Below the pieces are notes generated by a model. The model saw only the letters and a program-made list of their open reading frames with translations, searched no databases and was not told the origin of the DNA. Positions 31,903-35,548 of a DNA stretch of 64,000 bases are shown piece by piece. This DNA comes from Cystobacter fuscus (GTDB lineage Bacteria > Myxococcota > Myxococcia > Myxococcales > Myxococcaceae). Where the stretch lies: assembly GCF_002305875.1 (NCBI RefSeq), contig NZ_CP022098.1:3348001-3412000 (forward strand), read 5' to 3'. How positions within the stretch are numbered: the stretch's first letter is position 1; each line of letters begins with the position of its first letter. The position numbers and the translations under genes are program-made.

Positions 31903-32802
31903 TCAGGGCAGGGGAATGTTCTCCATGGTGATGGAGCGCGGTCCTTCTTCGTTCAGCGTCAGTGTCAGTGCCTCGAGCGGAGTTCCCGGTGCGGCCCTGG
32001 CCTCGACGAAGATGGCCCTCGTCACTCCGGGGTAGATGGCCTGCGGGGGGCCAAAGCGGATACCTTCCAACCGCTGTCCCTGGTTCGCCACCAACATGGC
32101 CTTCTCCACCTTCCAGGGGGCGGTTCCGCTGTTCTTGACGGAGACCTGCACGGCCACGCTGTTGAATGAGCGGAACACCGTCCCATCCAGGATGGTGAGG
32201 GAGTTCTCCACGTTCCACGACACATTCACGCTCAATACCCTCGAGACGATCCCCTGGCGACCCAGTTCTCCGTTGAGGAAGACCCTCAACAGTCCGCCAG
32301 GTGCGTTCAACTGGCCGTGCAGGGACTGGTTCTCTTCACCCAGGCGCTGATTCTTCGCCCGTTCCTCCTCGATTTCCTGCCAGAGCGAGGCCCGGGAGCG
32401 ACCGTCATGGAAGACATCGACCTGGTGGGTCACCTGACCTGGATGCGCGACCAGCATGAAGGTCACCCCCTGCTCGGGCGGCTCCCTCTCGAAGCGCACC
32501 GAGAGTCTCAGCCGTTCCCCGGGAGCCAGATCCGGTGGTGACACGAAGCTGATGCTGTCCCGTCCCCGGAGCACCCTGCCGAAACGCACTTCCTCTTCCA
32601 GGTCGACCGAAGCCGGTTGATCAAAGACAAATCCCGTCAGGCTGCCGGGAGCGATACAGATCTCCTGGACTCCCGCGGCGGCCCGTGCGGATAGATCAAT
32701 GCGTTGTCTGTCCACACAGGATGGCCGGGGAGCCGGCATCGGCTCGGGAGTCGCTTGCCTCAGCACCAGGGTCAATAGAAGATACAGGGGGGCGGGGTGC
32801 AT
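31903..32802 (-). CDS. DUF2381-family (TIGR02268-like) secreted protein
   Basis: 299 residues, ATG 32802. Signal peptide (PLYLLLTLVLRQATPEP). The order VQEICIAPGSLTGFVFDQPA, EVRFGRVLRGRDSISF, PPDLAPGERLRLSVRF, a coiled stretch (EEERAKNQRLGEENQSLHGQ), then a beta-rich end with WKVEKAMLV and LEALTLTLNEEG, is the pattern of the Myxococcus paralogous family TIGR02268/DUF2381. These periplasmic proteins commonly sit beside Ser/Thr kinase genes, as here (24-base gap to the kinase stop). Function unknown; probably the extracytoplasmic partner of a kinase system. Confidence 0.75.
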   Translation of the reverse strand: MHPAPLYLLLTLVLRQATPEPMPAPRPSCVDRQRIDLSARAAAGVQEICIAPGSLTGFVFDQPASVDLEEEVRFGRVLRGRDSISFVSPPDLAPGERLRLSVRFEREPPEQGVTFMLVAHPGQVTHQVDVFHDGRSRASLWQEIEEERAKNQRLGEENQSLHGQLNAPGGLLRVFLNGELGRQGIVSRVLSVNVSWNVENSLTILDGTVFRSFNSVAVQVSVKNSGTAPWKVEKAMLVANQGQRLEGIRFGPPQAIYPGVTRAIFVEARAAPGTPLEALTLTLNEEGPRSITMENIPLP

Positions 32803-32826
32803 GGAAGACGAAACTCCAGGAGGCTG

Positions 32827-34563
32827 TCAGTAGTAGAAACGATTCACGGTCTCCACGGCCGGTATGAGGTTGATGATGGCCTTGCCCTTGCTCGGCTGGC
32901 TCCCGGGTTCCATCGGCATCCCCGGATGGATCCCCTCCGTGAGGCGCATACAGATGGGCAGGACTTCTCCCGTGCGAAGGATGAGTTGGGTGAAATGGCC
33001 ATGAATCCGGTTGTCTTTGAAGTAGAGCTCCCCGTAGAGCTTCGTCTGATCCGGGATGCCCTCCCAGTCCCCGTGGACCTGGGCGGTGGTGAAGGGGCCT
33101 TCCTGGACGGTGAGGGTCTCGATGCGTGACTTTCTGGATTCCTCCAATGGGATGAGGATGACCGTATGCCAGCTGGGCCATACGACGCCGAAGCGCTTGA
33201 GCGTCTCCTGATGGCCCGGAGGGCACTCGGGGGAGGGGCGGGGACGGGGGGGAGGGGTGCTCGCGCAGCCCGTGCCCACACACGCGGCGGAGACCAGGGT
33301 GGACTTGAGCAGGGAACGGCCCGGGTGGGGTTTTCGCATCGGTTGATCCTCGCGGTGCGGCGCGTGGGTGGGCGCGGGGGGTGGTGACTCCAGAAGTTCC
33401 GCGCGTGGACCAACTTCGGCCGTCTTCGAGGTGTCTGCCAATTCCTGGCGGAACCCGGCTTCGTGTGGCGGGAGGGGCACAGGCAACCCAGTGCGTGGGA
33501 TCATGGCCCTCGTCTCCGAGGGAAGAGGCTGGGGGCCCGGCGGGAGGACCAGCGCCGCGAACAGGCTCAGGAGCAGGGCGCGGCTCCTCCCGGACGTGGC
33601 CGTGGGCGCGGGCGCCGCCGGGGCGCGGGGAGGCTCGGAAACCGGCCGCACCGGCTCCTCGGCGAAGAGCGGCACCCTCCAGGCGTCGTCCGCCTGGGCG
33701 AGGGCCTCGTCCACGGCGCGCGCGAGCGCCTGGGCGTCGGCGTAGCGGGCCGCGGGTGCCTTCTCCAGCATGCGCAGGCACAGCTCCCCCAGGGCCCGGG
33801 GGACGCGAGGATTGCGCACGTGGGGCGCCTCCGGCGTGTGCTCGAGGATGGTGCGCGTCAGGGGGCCGTGCCGGTCTCCGAAGGGCAGGGTGCGCGTGAG
33901 CAGGACATGGAGGGTGACTCCCAGGGCCCACAGATCGTCCGCGGGCTGGGAGTCATAACGCTCTCCTTCCCACTCCCGGGCGAAGCGCACGATCTCGGGG
34001 CTGCGGTACTCGGGCGTGCCCGGAGGCAGCCGCATCGTCAGGCGCGGGGCGCCCTCGTACCGGGCCGAGCCGAAGTCCACCAGTACCGGCCGCCCGTCCT
34101 CCCGGCGCATGAGGATGTTGGCCTCCTTCACGTCCCGATGCACCACCCCCGCCGCATGCACCTGCCCCAGGGCTTCCACCATGGGACGCAGCACCTGCCG
34201 GGTCAGTTGCTCCGCCGTGCACCGAACCTCCCGGGCCCAGACATCCAGCGCCGGGCCGTCCACCCACTCCAGCGCGAGCACCAGGAAGCTCGGCTTGTCC
34301 TCGGGCCACTGGCCATAGCCGAGCACTCCCACCACCGAGGTGTGCCGCACCCGGCGCAGCGCATCCACCTCGCGCTCGCCCCACATCCCCATGGGTACCA
34401 GCTTGAGGGCGAAGCGTCTGCCGCCGCGCTCGGCCCGGTACACGCTGCCCGAGCTGCCCGTGGCCAGACACTCCTGGAGGGTGAACCCCGCCACCTGGGT
34501 ACCCGGAGCGGGCTCGTTCCTCCTCCGCCCGCCCCCGTCCTGTTCGCCGCGTTCGTCAGACAT
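32827..34563 (-). CDS. Ser/Thr protein kinase reading in frame into a lipoprotein-like module
   Basis: 578 residues from ATG 34563 (MSDERGEQDG). Kinase domain about 25-290: glycine loop LATGSSGSVYRAE, catalytic D144 in VHRDVKEAN, DFG at 163-165, activation segment PPGTPEYRSPE. A hydrophobic segment about 328-342 (RALLLSLFAALVLPP) could cross the membrane, then a Pro-rich linker. At residue 409 (ATG 33339) a new MRKPHPGRSLLKSTLVSA appears, with the lipobox-like VGTGC and its own GAGGA eight bases upstream, followed by about 140 residues of beta-rich domain. Either one long protein or a kinase plus an independently started 170-residue lipoprotein. Same strand and 24 bases from DUF2381. Confidence 0.85.
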   Translation of the reverse strand: MSDERGEQDGGGRRRNEPAPGTQVAGFTLQECLATGSSGSVYRAERGGRRFALKLVPMGMWGEREVDALRRVRHTSVVGVLGYGQWPEDKPSFLVLALEWVDGPALDVWAREVRCTAEQLTRQVLRPMVEALGQVHAAGVVHRDVKEANILMRREDGRPVLVDFGSARYEGAPRLTMRLPPGTPEYRSPEIVRFAREWEGERYDSQPADDLWALGVTLHVLLTRTLPFGDRHGPLTRTILEHTPEAPHVRNPRVPRALGELCLRMLEKAPAARYADAQALARAVDEALAQADDAWRVPLFAEEPVRPVSEPPRAPAAPAPTATSGRSRALLLSLFAALVLPPGPQPLPSETRAMIPRTGLPVPLPPHEAGFRQELADTSKTAEVGPRAELLESPPPAPTHAPHREDQPMRKPHPGRSLLKSTLVSAACVGTGCASTPPPRPRPSPECPPGHQETLKRFGVVWPSWHTVILIPLEESRKSRIETLTVQEGPFTTAQVHGDWEGIPDQTKLYGELYFKDNRIHGHFTQLILRTGEVLPICMRLTEGIHPGMPMEPGSQPSKGKAIINLIPAVETVNRFYY

Positions 34564-34681
34564 CCCACCTGTCCTCCGGAGGCTGCGGAGGCTACCAGTG
34601 AGATGACCACATTCCCTGGACCCATCAGGTAGGCGGTCGCGGGGCCGACCCCATCGGGGCACTCGTCCCCGTCCGAGGCGC

Positions 34682-35548
34682 CTACCCGCGGGCCCCGCGC
34701 TCCACGGTGTCGATGTGCCCCAGGAGTGCCGCCGCGAGCGAGGGCATGAGGACGCGGGGAAGCGCATGGCCCATGCCCTCGAGGGTCACGAGCGTCGAGT
34801 GGGGCAGGTTCGCCGCCAGGTGCCGCGCGTTGGGCGCCGGATTGATGGGATCCTCCGGGGTGGCGATGACGAGCGTGGGCACGGTGACGTGGGCCAGCTC
34901 CGCGCCGCGCTCCAGGCCGGTGGTGCTGGCGCGTGCGTGGGCGCCCGGGTTGTCGTGCCGGCCGGCGTGGCGGATGATGCGGCGCTCGAGCGCGCGGTAC
35001 TCCTCCGCGTCGAAGGGCAGCACCCGCCCGTGGAGCCTCCGCCAGTTCTCCACCCGCCAGTCCAGCTCCGCCTCGAGCTCGCGCGGCTCGAACATGTGGC
35101 TCCAGAACTCGAGCAGTCCCTTGTCGATGGGGACGGGCGCCGTGCCGTCCGCGGGCGTGCCACCGAGGGCGGGGATGCCGAAGACGGTCGCGCTGAGCAG
35201 CCGCTGGGGGTGATCGAGCAGCAGCAGTTGCACGAGCAGACCACCCAGCGACATGCCCACGACGTGCGCGCGGGAGATGCCGAGCGCATCGAGCACGGCC
35301 ACGGCGTCCTCGGCCAGCCGGGTGATGGGATAGGGTTTCGTGTCGAAGGCCCAGGTGGAGGCGCCGGTGTCCCGGTGGTCATAGCGGATGACCCGGTGCC
35401 GTCTGGACAGCAGCGCCATGAGCTCGTCCGGCCAGGCGAGGCCCGAGGCATTGGCTCCCATGATGAGCAGGATGGTGGGCGCGTCCTCCGGGCCCCAGGT
35501 CTCGACCCAGAGCGAGACACCGTCGGCGACTTCGACGAAGCGTTGCAT
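34682..35548 (-). CDS. alpha/beta hydrolase, RdmC/esterase-like
   Basis: 288 residues, ATG 35548. Motifs: LWVETWGPEDAPTILLIMG, DHRDTGASTW, nucleophile elbow VVGMSLGGLL, acid in IATPEDPINP, histidine in EGMGHALPR. These match small-molecule esterases and methylesterases (RdmC/DnrP, haloperoxidase-like). Cytoplasmic. Sits between rho (upstream) and the kinase (downstream), all on the minus strand but separated by 130 and 118 bases, so probably its own unit. Confidence 0.85.
   Translation of the reverse strand: MQRFVEVADGVSLWVETWGPEDAPTILLIMGANASGLAWPDELMALLSRRHRVIRYDHRDTGASTWAFDTKPYPITRLAEDAVAVLDALGISRAHVVGMSLGGLLVQLLLLDHPQRLLSATVFGIPALGGTPADGTAPVPIDKGLLEFWSHMFEPRELEAELDWRVENWRRLHGRVLPFDAEEYRALERRIIRHAGRHDNPGAHARASTTGLERGAELAHVTVPTLVIATPEDPINPAPNARHLAANLPHSTLVTLEGMGHALPRVLMPSLAAALLGHIDTVERGARG

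Follow-up and report, generated by a model that had tools for sequence, protein, structure and literature searches.

Whether one reading frame yields one protein or two is the question raised by a gene of Cystobacter fuscus (NCBI RefSeq assembly GCF_002305875.1, contig NZ_CP022098.1, positions 3,348,001 to 3,412,000), in which a protein kinase is followed, in a single frame, by what looks like a complete lipoprotein gene with its own start codon, ribosome site and lipobox. The whole stretch of 64,000 nucleotides (nt) that was analyzed is referred to here as the window, and all positions are those of the window. The original prediction had proposed either that a stop codon once separating the kinase from the lipoprotein was lost, or that one gene yields two products, a membrane kinase with a periplasmic sensor and a free lipoprotein form of the same sensor. 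Based on the comparison of related loci, the second proposal is the one that we consider likely: a kinase built on the plan of VirB10, from the outer-membrane core of type IV secretion systems (T4SS), would be made alongside a free lipoprotein translated from an internal start, probably with a promoter of its own. It is supported by the conservation of the start codon, a dip in mRNA structure, an upstream DNA element, the lipobox and the existence of copies that lack the kinase. The upstream element and the likeness to VirB10 and VirB9 are additions to what had been noticed before.

The fused frame and its relatives

Translation bears out a single uninterrupted frame of 578 codons. The Pfam family Pkinase (PF00069) covers residues 30-281 of the window protein with an E-value of 2.5e-32, and the motifs FALK (from residue 51), HRDVK (from 142) and DFG (from 163), which we take to be the customary marks of a kinase domain, lie within it; with the Lys, HRD and DFG present, this region is a Hanks-type Ser/Thr protein kinase domain by sequence, and its activity is predicted. 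The same part matches the PASTA-kinase profile NF033483 at 100 bits against a cut-off of 450. For the last 170 residues, referred to here as the lipoprotein or outer domain, neither Pfam nor NCBIfam gave a match at the thresholds applied. The methionine at position 409, the hydrophobic run MRKPHPGRSLLKSTLVSAACVGTG and the lipobox cysteine C433 all lie in the frame of the kinase, as had been predicted, and the ribosome site GAGGA is present as well, with a gap to the ATG of 7 nt rather than eight.

A first scan of genome contigs with the window protein as the query found no relative. The outer part gave 20 matches at E < 0.004 in the same genome, the window gene included, and at E <= 1e-5 the outer domain was found in 64 of 96 genomes and 8 of 26 genera of the taxonomic family, among them Archangium violaceum, a member of Myxococcales, and A. 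lansinium; at least 42 matches occur in the richest genome, 42 being the candidates scored. Loci were found by the outer domain alone, and of 158 gathered, 147 carry it. Fused loci under 70% identity served as 78 representatives, which are still related to one another. A further 63 loci from genomes not used earlier were held out and treated with the same alignment and matrix; these are among the better domain matches, 24 of them share 70% identity or more with loci of the first set, and 27 serve as held-out representatives.

The kinase lies in the same open frame as the outer domain in 132 of the 147 loci, in another frame in three (L014, L110 and L145), and is absent from the available DNA in 12, one of which (L123) lies at a contig edge, so that one frame is found in 132 of the 135 loci having both parts. 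Since fused loci are open by definition, all loci with the outer domain were counted, and in none of the 147 are kinase and lipoprotein separated by an in-frame stop; among the held-out loci, the kinase is in frame in 63 of 63. The linker from the end of the kinase domain to the internal start varies from 97 to 271 codons, and its 12,790 codons in the 78 representatives would contain about 261 stops in random sequence of the same composition. When the window copy is compared with each of its two orthologs, the ratios of nonsynonymous to synonymous substitution (dN/dS) are 0.41 and 0.34 for the linker, 0.15 and 0.19 for the kinase, and 0.66 and 0.62 for the rest of the lipoprotein, and those of the pair L003/L049 are 0.71, 0.10 and 0.27, respectively; the fused frame is therefore kept while the linker and outer domain evolve fast.

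Two further observations concern individual loci. In the three with the kinase in another frame, a frameshift or an error of assembly may be the cause, or the kinase may be decaying while the nested gene persists. Additionally, the linker before the lipobox is identical in L005 and L008, both in the genome of the window, but their outer domains differ clearly, as though these had been exchanged or converted from copy to copy.

The probable internal start site and the lipobox

For the comparison of start sites, 131 linkers (L077 excluded) were aligned as amino acids only, and the codons were inspected afterwards. The column of M409 is occupied mostly by valine, leucine or methionine. Among the representatives, valine in this column is encoded by GTG in 40 of 42 cases (background 0.692, p 3.7e-5) and leucine by TTG in six of nine (background 0.099, p 6e-5), with p-values that treat related sequences as independent; the three exceptional leucines sit one or two residues past a methionine or valine better placed as a start. 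Because copies that otherwise differ can have the same linker, the linkers were also clustered alone, and at less than 60% identity GTG is retained in 33 of 35 and TTG in five of eight. Start codons make up 54 of the 59 Met, Val or Leu codons in the column (92%), and the best kinase column reaches 84% among the columns listed, each of which has at least 40 such codons. In the held-out loci, valine is GTG in 45 of 46 and leucine TTG in two of three, with another residue or a gap in 11 of 63; in the 27 held-out representatives, the corresponding figures are GTG in 17 of 17, CTC for the lone leucine, and another residue or a gap in seven. When sites are also placed for clades in which the start is shifted or an upstream methionine is used, ATG, GTG or TTG is present in 77 of 78 representatives, a count that is descriptive only, with 22 sites chosen as the nearest methionine and four placed by hand. 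Judged by the aligned codons, a start codon is conserved in the same frame as the kinase, which is the mark of an internal in-frame start.

The surroundings of this codon were compared with other positions in the same genes, on the assumption of the usual anti-Shine-Dalgarno sequence. A Shine-Dalgarno (SD) energy of -4 or better occurs at 50 of 59 start sites (85%), as compared to 27% of 553 other Met, Val or Leu codons of the linkers and 33% of 4,653 such codons of the kinases in the representatives; in view of the last figure, a lone start-like site could be a matter of chance, and it is the comparison among loci that shows this one to be more. In 41-nt windows, the mean folding energy is close to -5 kcal/mol at the start site, and it ranges from -10.6 to -15 at distances of 24 nt or more upstream and 48 nt or more downstream. 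Over 42 nt in the 78 representatives, the site has a value of -5.77 versus -8.59 and -7.67 under two synonymous nulls, and in each of these none of 200 draws reaches the observed value. A smaller dip is found at the start codons of 12 genes of DUF2381, the family to which the next gene downstream in the window belongs, and no dip was found at in-frame start codons inside the kinase with an SD of -4 or better (400 sampled of 686).

A subclass of loci (L016, L018-L021, L041-L043 and L058) has neither the upstream element described below nor a downstream DUF2381 gene, and several of its members use another in-frame ribosome site before the start, AAAGGA, formed by Lys-Gly codons.

The features of a lipoprotein are likewise conserved. 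A cysteine is found near the expected place, the start of the modelled domain, in 146 of 147 loci, and the residue before it is glycine, alanine or serine in all 78 representatives and all 63 held-out loci. Lysine and arginine are more numerous before the hydrophobic run than after the cysteine in 62 of the 78 representatives, equal in nine and fewer in seven, a pattern that has the polarity of a signal peptide and is opposite to that expected of a second membrane pass. The n-region, hydrophobic run, residue at -1 and cysteine are, by sequence, those of an Lgt/Lsp lipoprotein, and lipidation is predicted. In the alignment that starts at the lipobox cysteine, Cys15, Pro16, Gly79 and Cys106 are invariant, and the invariant cysteines suggest a disulfide outside the cytoplasm.

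Lipoprotein genes that stand alone are found at L012, L017, L118, L127, L144 and L151, and in L012 and L017 a DUF2381 gene lies upstream. The likeness of the kinase-less L144 to L146 of the same genome sets in at the internal ATG, as resolved to 15 nt; in L084, the likeness to relatives extends upstream past the element.

Two other kinase-less loci, L117 and L120, keep the hydrophobic segment, linker, in-frame start and lipobox, and have a DUF2381 frame in the same locus.

The bipartite upstream element

Upstream of the internal start, most of the linkers carry the element GAAnTGGCG-N18-GAAnnT, which is read in frame as (Q/R)E(V/L/M)A...E(x). Among the 52 representatives with glutamate in the first column, this residue is GAA in 51 (background 15%), the last codon ends in a wobble T in 51, and a purine stands seven bases past the second box in 48. 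The synonymous-site deviation per codon at the three key columns is 3.09, 2.34 and 3.72, the highest among 234 kinase columns being 1.21. The wobble bases beside the element are mixed, also at less than 60% linker identity, and shared ancestry therefore does not explain the element; some copies without the glutamate, examined by eye, retain the bases as AAAnTGGCG. A position matrix detects the element in 101 of the 132 fused loci and in four of the 15 others, and its spacing is unchanged in all 105 loci having it, shifts of one base being allowed. The distance to the start varies from 78 to 123 nt in 12 sizes, every step being a multiple of three, in one frame. In the held-out set, the element occurs in 56 of 63 loci within 150-330 nt before the cysteine, and in one more at 147 nt; the wobble T is present in 56 of 56, and 22 of the 27 held-out representatives have the element.

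The element is associated with what lies downstream of it and persists where the kinase does not. Among loci up to L058, a downstream DUF2381 gene is found in 30 of 30 fused loci with the element versus four of 13 without, and the element is kept in L013, L014, L084 and L145, whose kinase is missing or out of frame. Exact matches number nine in the genome against two in the control, and eight of the nine are copies of the family. With its two boxes, 18-bp spacer and purine seven bases after the second box, the element resembles a promoter, and its A and T fall at the places of the conserved bases of a -10 promoter box; it is most likely a promoter- or operator-like signal acting at the nucleotide level. 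RNAalifold found no consensus structure for it.

Two candidate readings of this region were set aside. A motif of promoters throughout the genome was rejected, since nearly all exact matches are in the family and there is no excess with up to one mismatch. The conserved QE[VLM]A column was considered as a second internal start and rejected, with an SD of -4 or better in only 17% and no folding dip; it proved to be part of the element.

Between the element and the start, columns 103-106 of the linker show a second bias at the codon level: valine in column 104 is GTC in 34 of 35 representatives, and alanine in column 106 is GCC in 31 of 45.

Predicted folds and rival explanations

The mature outer domain was modelled by AF2 with a pLDDT of 91.9 and a pTM of 0.84. 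Core complexes of type IV secretion make up the first twelve Foldseek matches (best E 1.1e-3) and the top 14 rows of VIA, with Z values of 10.5-6.8 in VIA, the next being 3.1. The matched chains are taken here to be VirB10-type subunits, on the basis of entry titles and residue numbers, and the domain is predicted to fold like the C-terminal beta-barrel domain of VirB10. DSSP assigned one helix of at least four residues (19-25) and a short HHH at 125-127, and no inserted helix pair was found. In VirB10, this pair, the helical antenna, forms the outer-membrane pore, and the outer domain would therefore not be a full VirB10. The best profile matches among PDB sequences, to fatty-acid-binding proteins (E 0.04), were taken as chance beside the fold result.

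Given a VirB10-like outer domain, the adjacent DUF2381 protein was expected to be VirB9-like, and this guess was recorded before its structure searches. Its model has a pLDDT of 79.5 and a pTM of 0.45. Type IV core chains, presumably of the VirB9 type, occupy Foldseek ranks 1-5 (E 8e-10 to 1e-6) and VIA ranks 1-7, with compact matches at Z 11.3, 10.5, 10.5 and 10.4 over residues ~29-140; whole-length matches to such chains, which would take in the C-terminal domain with which VirB9 binds VirB10 and VirB7, have a root-mean-square deviation of 16-20. The N-terminal domain, residues ~29-135, is accordingly predicted, from the model, to fold like the N-terminal beta domain of VirB9. Neither the Pfam nor the NCBIfam entry gives DUF2381 a function.

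Several known systems share part of this design. In VirB10, a cytoplasmic part is followed by a transmembrane segment, a Pro-rich linker and an outer domain, a layout that the full-length window protein resembles, and in predicted fold its lipoprotein domain is like the C-terminal domain of the VirB10/TrbI/ComB10/CagY/DotG group. However, a Hanks kinase takes the cytoplasmic place here, the model has no helical antenna, and a second, lipoprotein form of the same domain is present in a family with at least 42 matches in its richest genome. The N-terminal domain of DUF2381 is similarly like VirB9/CagX/DotH/TraK in predicted fold, although DUF2381 has, in addition, a helix of ~29 residues and a second beta domain. 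Receptor kinases of the PASTA type (PknB/Stk1) share the plan of Hanks kinase, transmembrane segment and extracytoplasmic sensor, whereas the outer domain in the window is VirB10-like in prediction and apparently also made separately. Another parallel is Cas11b, which is reported to be made from an internal in-frame start inside cas8b as a further subunit of the same complex (PMC11899642). In both cases, part of a larger protein would be made separately in the same frame. What differs here is that the short form comes with a signal peptide and lipobox, so that the two products would end up in different compartments, and that a conserved DNA element lies upstream of the nested gene.

Comparison of the loci finds the in-frame fusion, the internal start region, the nucleotide-level element, the lipobox and the linkage to DUF2381 to be conserved; from this we infer that both proteins are made and that the element is a promoter, together with the topology, assembly and signalling proposed below. 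Both folds are those of structure prediction. Translation from 34563 would give a Hanks-type kinase, one transmembrane segment, a Pro-rich linker spanning the periplasm and a domain like the C-terminal part of VirB10, that is, an envelope-spanning product with the VirB10 layout and the kinase as its cytoplasmic part. Translation from 33339 would give the same outer domain as a free lipoprotein, with its own signal peptide and anchored at Cys433, and the element 105 nt upstream would be the promoter or operator for a second transcript encoding the lipoprotein and the VirB9-like DUF2381 protein. Many free lipoprotein subunits may form an outer-membrane assembly with DUF2381, and a few full-length subunits would tie this assembly to the cytoplasmic kinase, reporting the state of the outer membrane. 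A broader proposal is held tentatively, as slightly more doubtful than credible: myxobacteria may possess many receptor kinases that follow the VirB10 plan, and every one of these genes would enclose a complete unit for transcription and translation, consisting of element, SD, start, signal peptide and lipobox. From this unit a lipoprotein copy of the kinase's outer domain would be made, and the two forms and DUF2381 would make up a mixed outer-membrane assembly wired to a cytoplasmic kinase, a T4SS core repurposed for sensing.

A number of observations weigh against the production of two proteins or against the parts of the proposal. The window copy is not the best example of the family: what had been described as a transmembrane kinase does combine a kinase domain with a transmembrane segment, but the segment is weak, with a best 17-residue hydropathy (KD17) of 1.51 versus a mean of 2.18 over the 78 representatives, 69 of which reach at least 1.6; its start site folds at -9.4, a weaker dip than in the family; and its element has GCA in place of GCG. 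Synonymous resampling yields a stronger SD than that observed (-6.46 vs -5.32), and the enrichment therefore stems from the amino acids chosen, not from codon choice; SD strength is not maximized at the codon level. In some lineages (L009, L010, L104, L113, L115, L122 and L146), the ATG has no SD, and the stretch 25 codons upstream is also less folded than the null (-13.8 vs -15.4), with a smaller gap than at the site. The kinase-less L140 begins to resemble its relatives ~45 nt before the start codon. By score, 23 of the 78 representatives have no element, and since linker columns 104 and 114 deviate by 1.43 and 1.35, above every kinase column, the element is not the sole biased place. Genome-wide, matches with at most one mismatch (22 + 20) are not above the control (28 + 27), and a scan for the sigma-70 consensus (TTGACA/TATAAT-like), the only sigma factor scanned for, found no site in positions 32750-34800. 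The likeness to VirB10 is that of a predicted model with a best Foldseek E-value of 1.1e-3, and TrbI, the Pfam family touched by most members, is touched by eight of 78 (E <= 1, best E 0.0011), the domain in the window having no match.

Other accounts of the fused frame have to be weighed against these two products. The recent loss of a stop codon in this genome would fit the complete appearance of the lipoprotein part and the existence of standalone lipoprotein genes, but it is highly improbable with no intervening stop in 147 loci and with the closest orthologs, L031 and L032, as well as all 63 held-out loci, fused. Both orthologs also have the same ATG and GAGGA; orthologs lacking the methionine and ribosome site, which would have spoken against a second start, were sought and not found. 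The fused membrane kinase could instead be the sole product, with the start-like site a relic of an old fusion between kinase and lipoprotein genes, and the single frame of 132 of 135 loci, the transmembrane segment in 69 of 78 representatives, the SD and lipobox of close relatives and an SD strength not above synonymous expectation would all be accounted for. It is nevertheless quite unlikely, because start codons are kept through Met/Val/Leu changes in linkers under 50-70% identical, the folding dip is kept at the synonymous level, and the wobble bases of the element are kept while their neighbors are mixed; moreover, by the rules of membrane topology, a lipobox on a second, outside-to-inside pass could not be processed, and the charge pattern opposes such a pass. 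Cleavage of the full-length protein at the internal lipobox by the lipoprotein signal peptidase, with no internal translation start, is unlikely as well: the -1 residue and cysteine are conserved in fused forms, and the weak first segment of the window copy could leave the second as the membrane anchor, yet the conserved start codon, mRNA-structure dip and upstream element would be left unexplained; moreover, some lipoprotein genes stand alone, and that of L144 begins at the start codon.

With regard to the element, it is a real, if minority, possibility that it represents another kind of nucleotide-level signal, such as an RNA element, an operator bound by a regulator specific to the family, or a site of recombination through which copies exchange outer domains. 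Its near confinement to the family within the genome and the empty sigma-70 scan are consistent with this, and L005 and L008, with the same linker and different outer domains, look as domain exchange would make them. The absence of an RNAalifold consensus structure speaks against an alternative of this kind, the two-box layout with 18 bp between the boxes, the A and T at -10 places and the downstream purine in 48 of 52 fit a promoter, and the element tracks the downstream DUF2381 gene and survives in four loci with the kinase lost or out of frame.

If two proteins are indeed made, a large group of predicted myxobacterial receptor kinases would each produce two proteins in two places from a sequence that reads as one. 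DUF2381/TIGR02268 and the unnamed outer domain would gain a first structural idea, Ser/Thr kinases would be linked to the core folds of type IV secretion, and the locus would provide a sequence-based example of one gene nested in frame within another and equipped with separate upstream signals. In the portions of the literature that the search returned, nothing was found on DUF2381, TIGR02268 or PF09544, nor on VirB10-type kinases in myxobacteria or a kinase/lipoprotein double product, and the available part of PMC2877116 does not mention "lipoprotein" or "TrbI". The features of the locus are listed in Table 1.

Table 1. Features of the kinase-lipoprotein gene and its downstream neighbor in the window
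Feature	Position	Strand	Basis
Whole frame: fusion of kinase, transmembrane segment, linker and lipoprotein domain, 578 aa	32827..34563	(-)	Open reading frame, PF00069 match
Hanks-type Ser/Thr kinase domain (by sequence), residues 30-281	33721..34476	(-)	PF00069 and FALK, HRDVK, DFG motifs
First hydrophobic segment ALLLSLFAALVL, residues 329-340, presumed transmembrane	33544..33579	(-)	Hydropathy; weak here
Pro/Ala-rich linker, presumed periplasmic in the full-length product	33340..33543	(-)	Translation
Bipartite element GAATTGGCA-N18-GAAGTTG, resembling a promoter or operator, 105 nt before the putative internal start	33411..33444	(-)	Position weight matrix score 35.5, spacer shift 0
Shine-Dalgarno GAGGA, coded within the kinase frame	33347..33351	(-)	Sequence
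Putative internal start codon ATG (M409)	33337..33339	(-)	Comparative tests
Signal-peptide-like segment MRKPHPGRSLLKSTLVSAACVGTG and lipobox Cys433	33265..33339	(-)	Sequence, family lipobox counts
Putative nested lipoprotein gene, 170 aa; mature domain with predicted fold like the VirB10 C-terminal domain	32827..33339	(-)	Structure prediction
Downstream gene DUF2381/TIGR02268; N-terminal domain with predicted VirB9-like fold	31903..32802	(-)	Profile match and structure prediction

The DUF2381 gene begins 24 bases past the stop of the kinase-lipoprotein frame. Beyond the N-terminal domain, its model contains the helix of ~29 residues and the second beta domain, and residues ~193-299 match the copper-binding PmoF1 PCuAC fold and coat-appendage Ig-like folds, with VIA Z values of 8.9-8.0.

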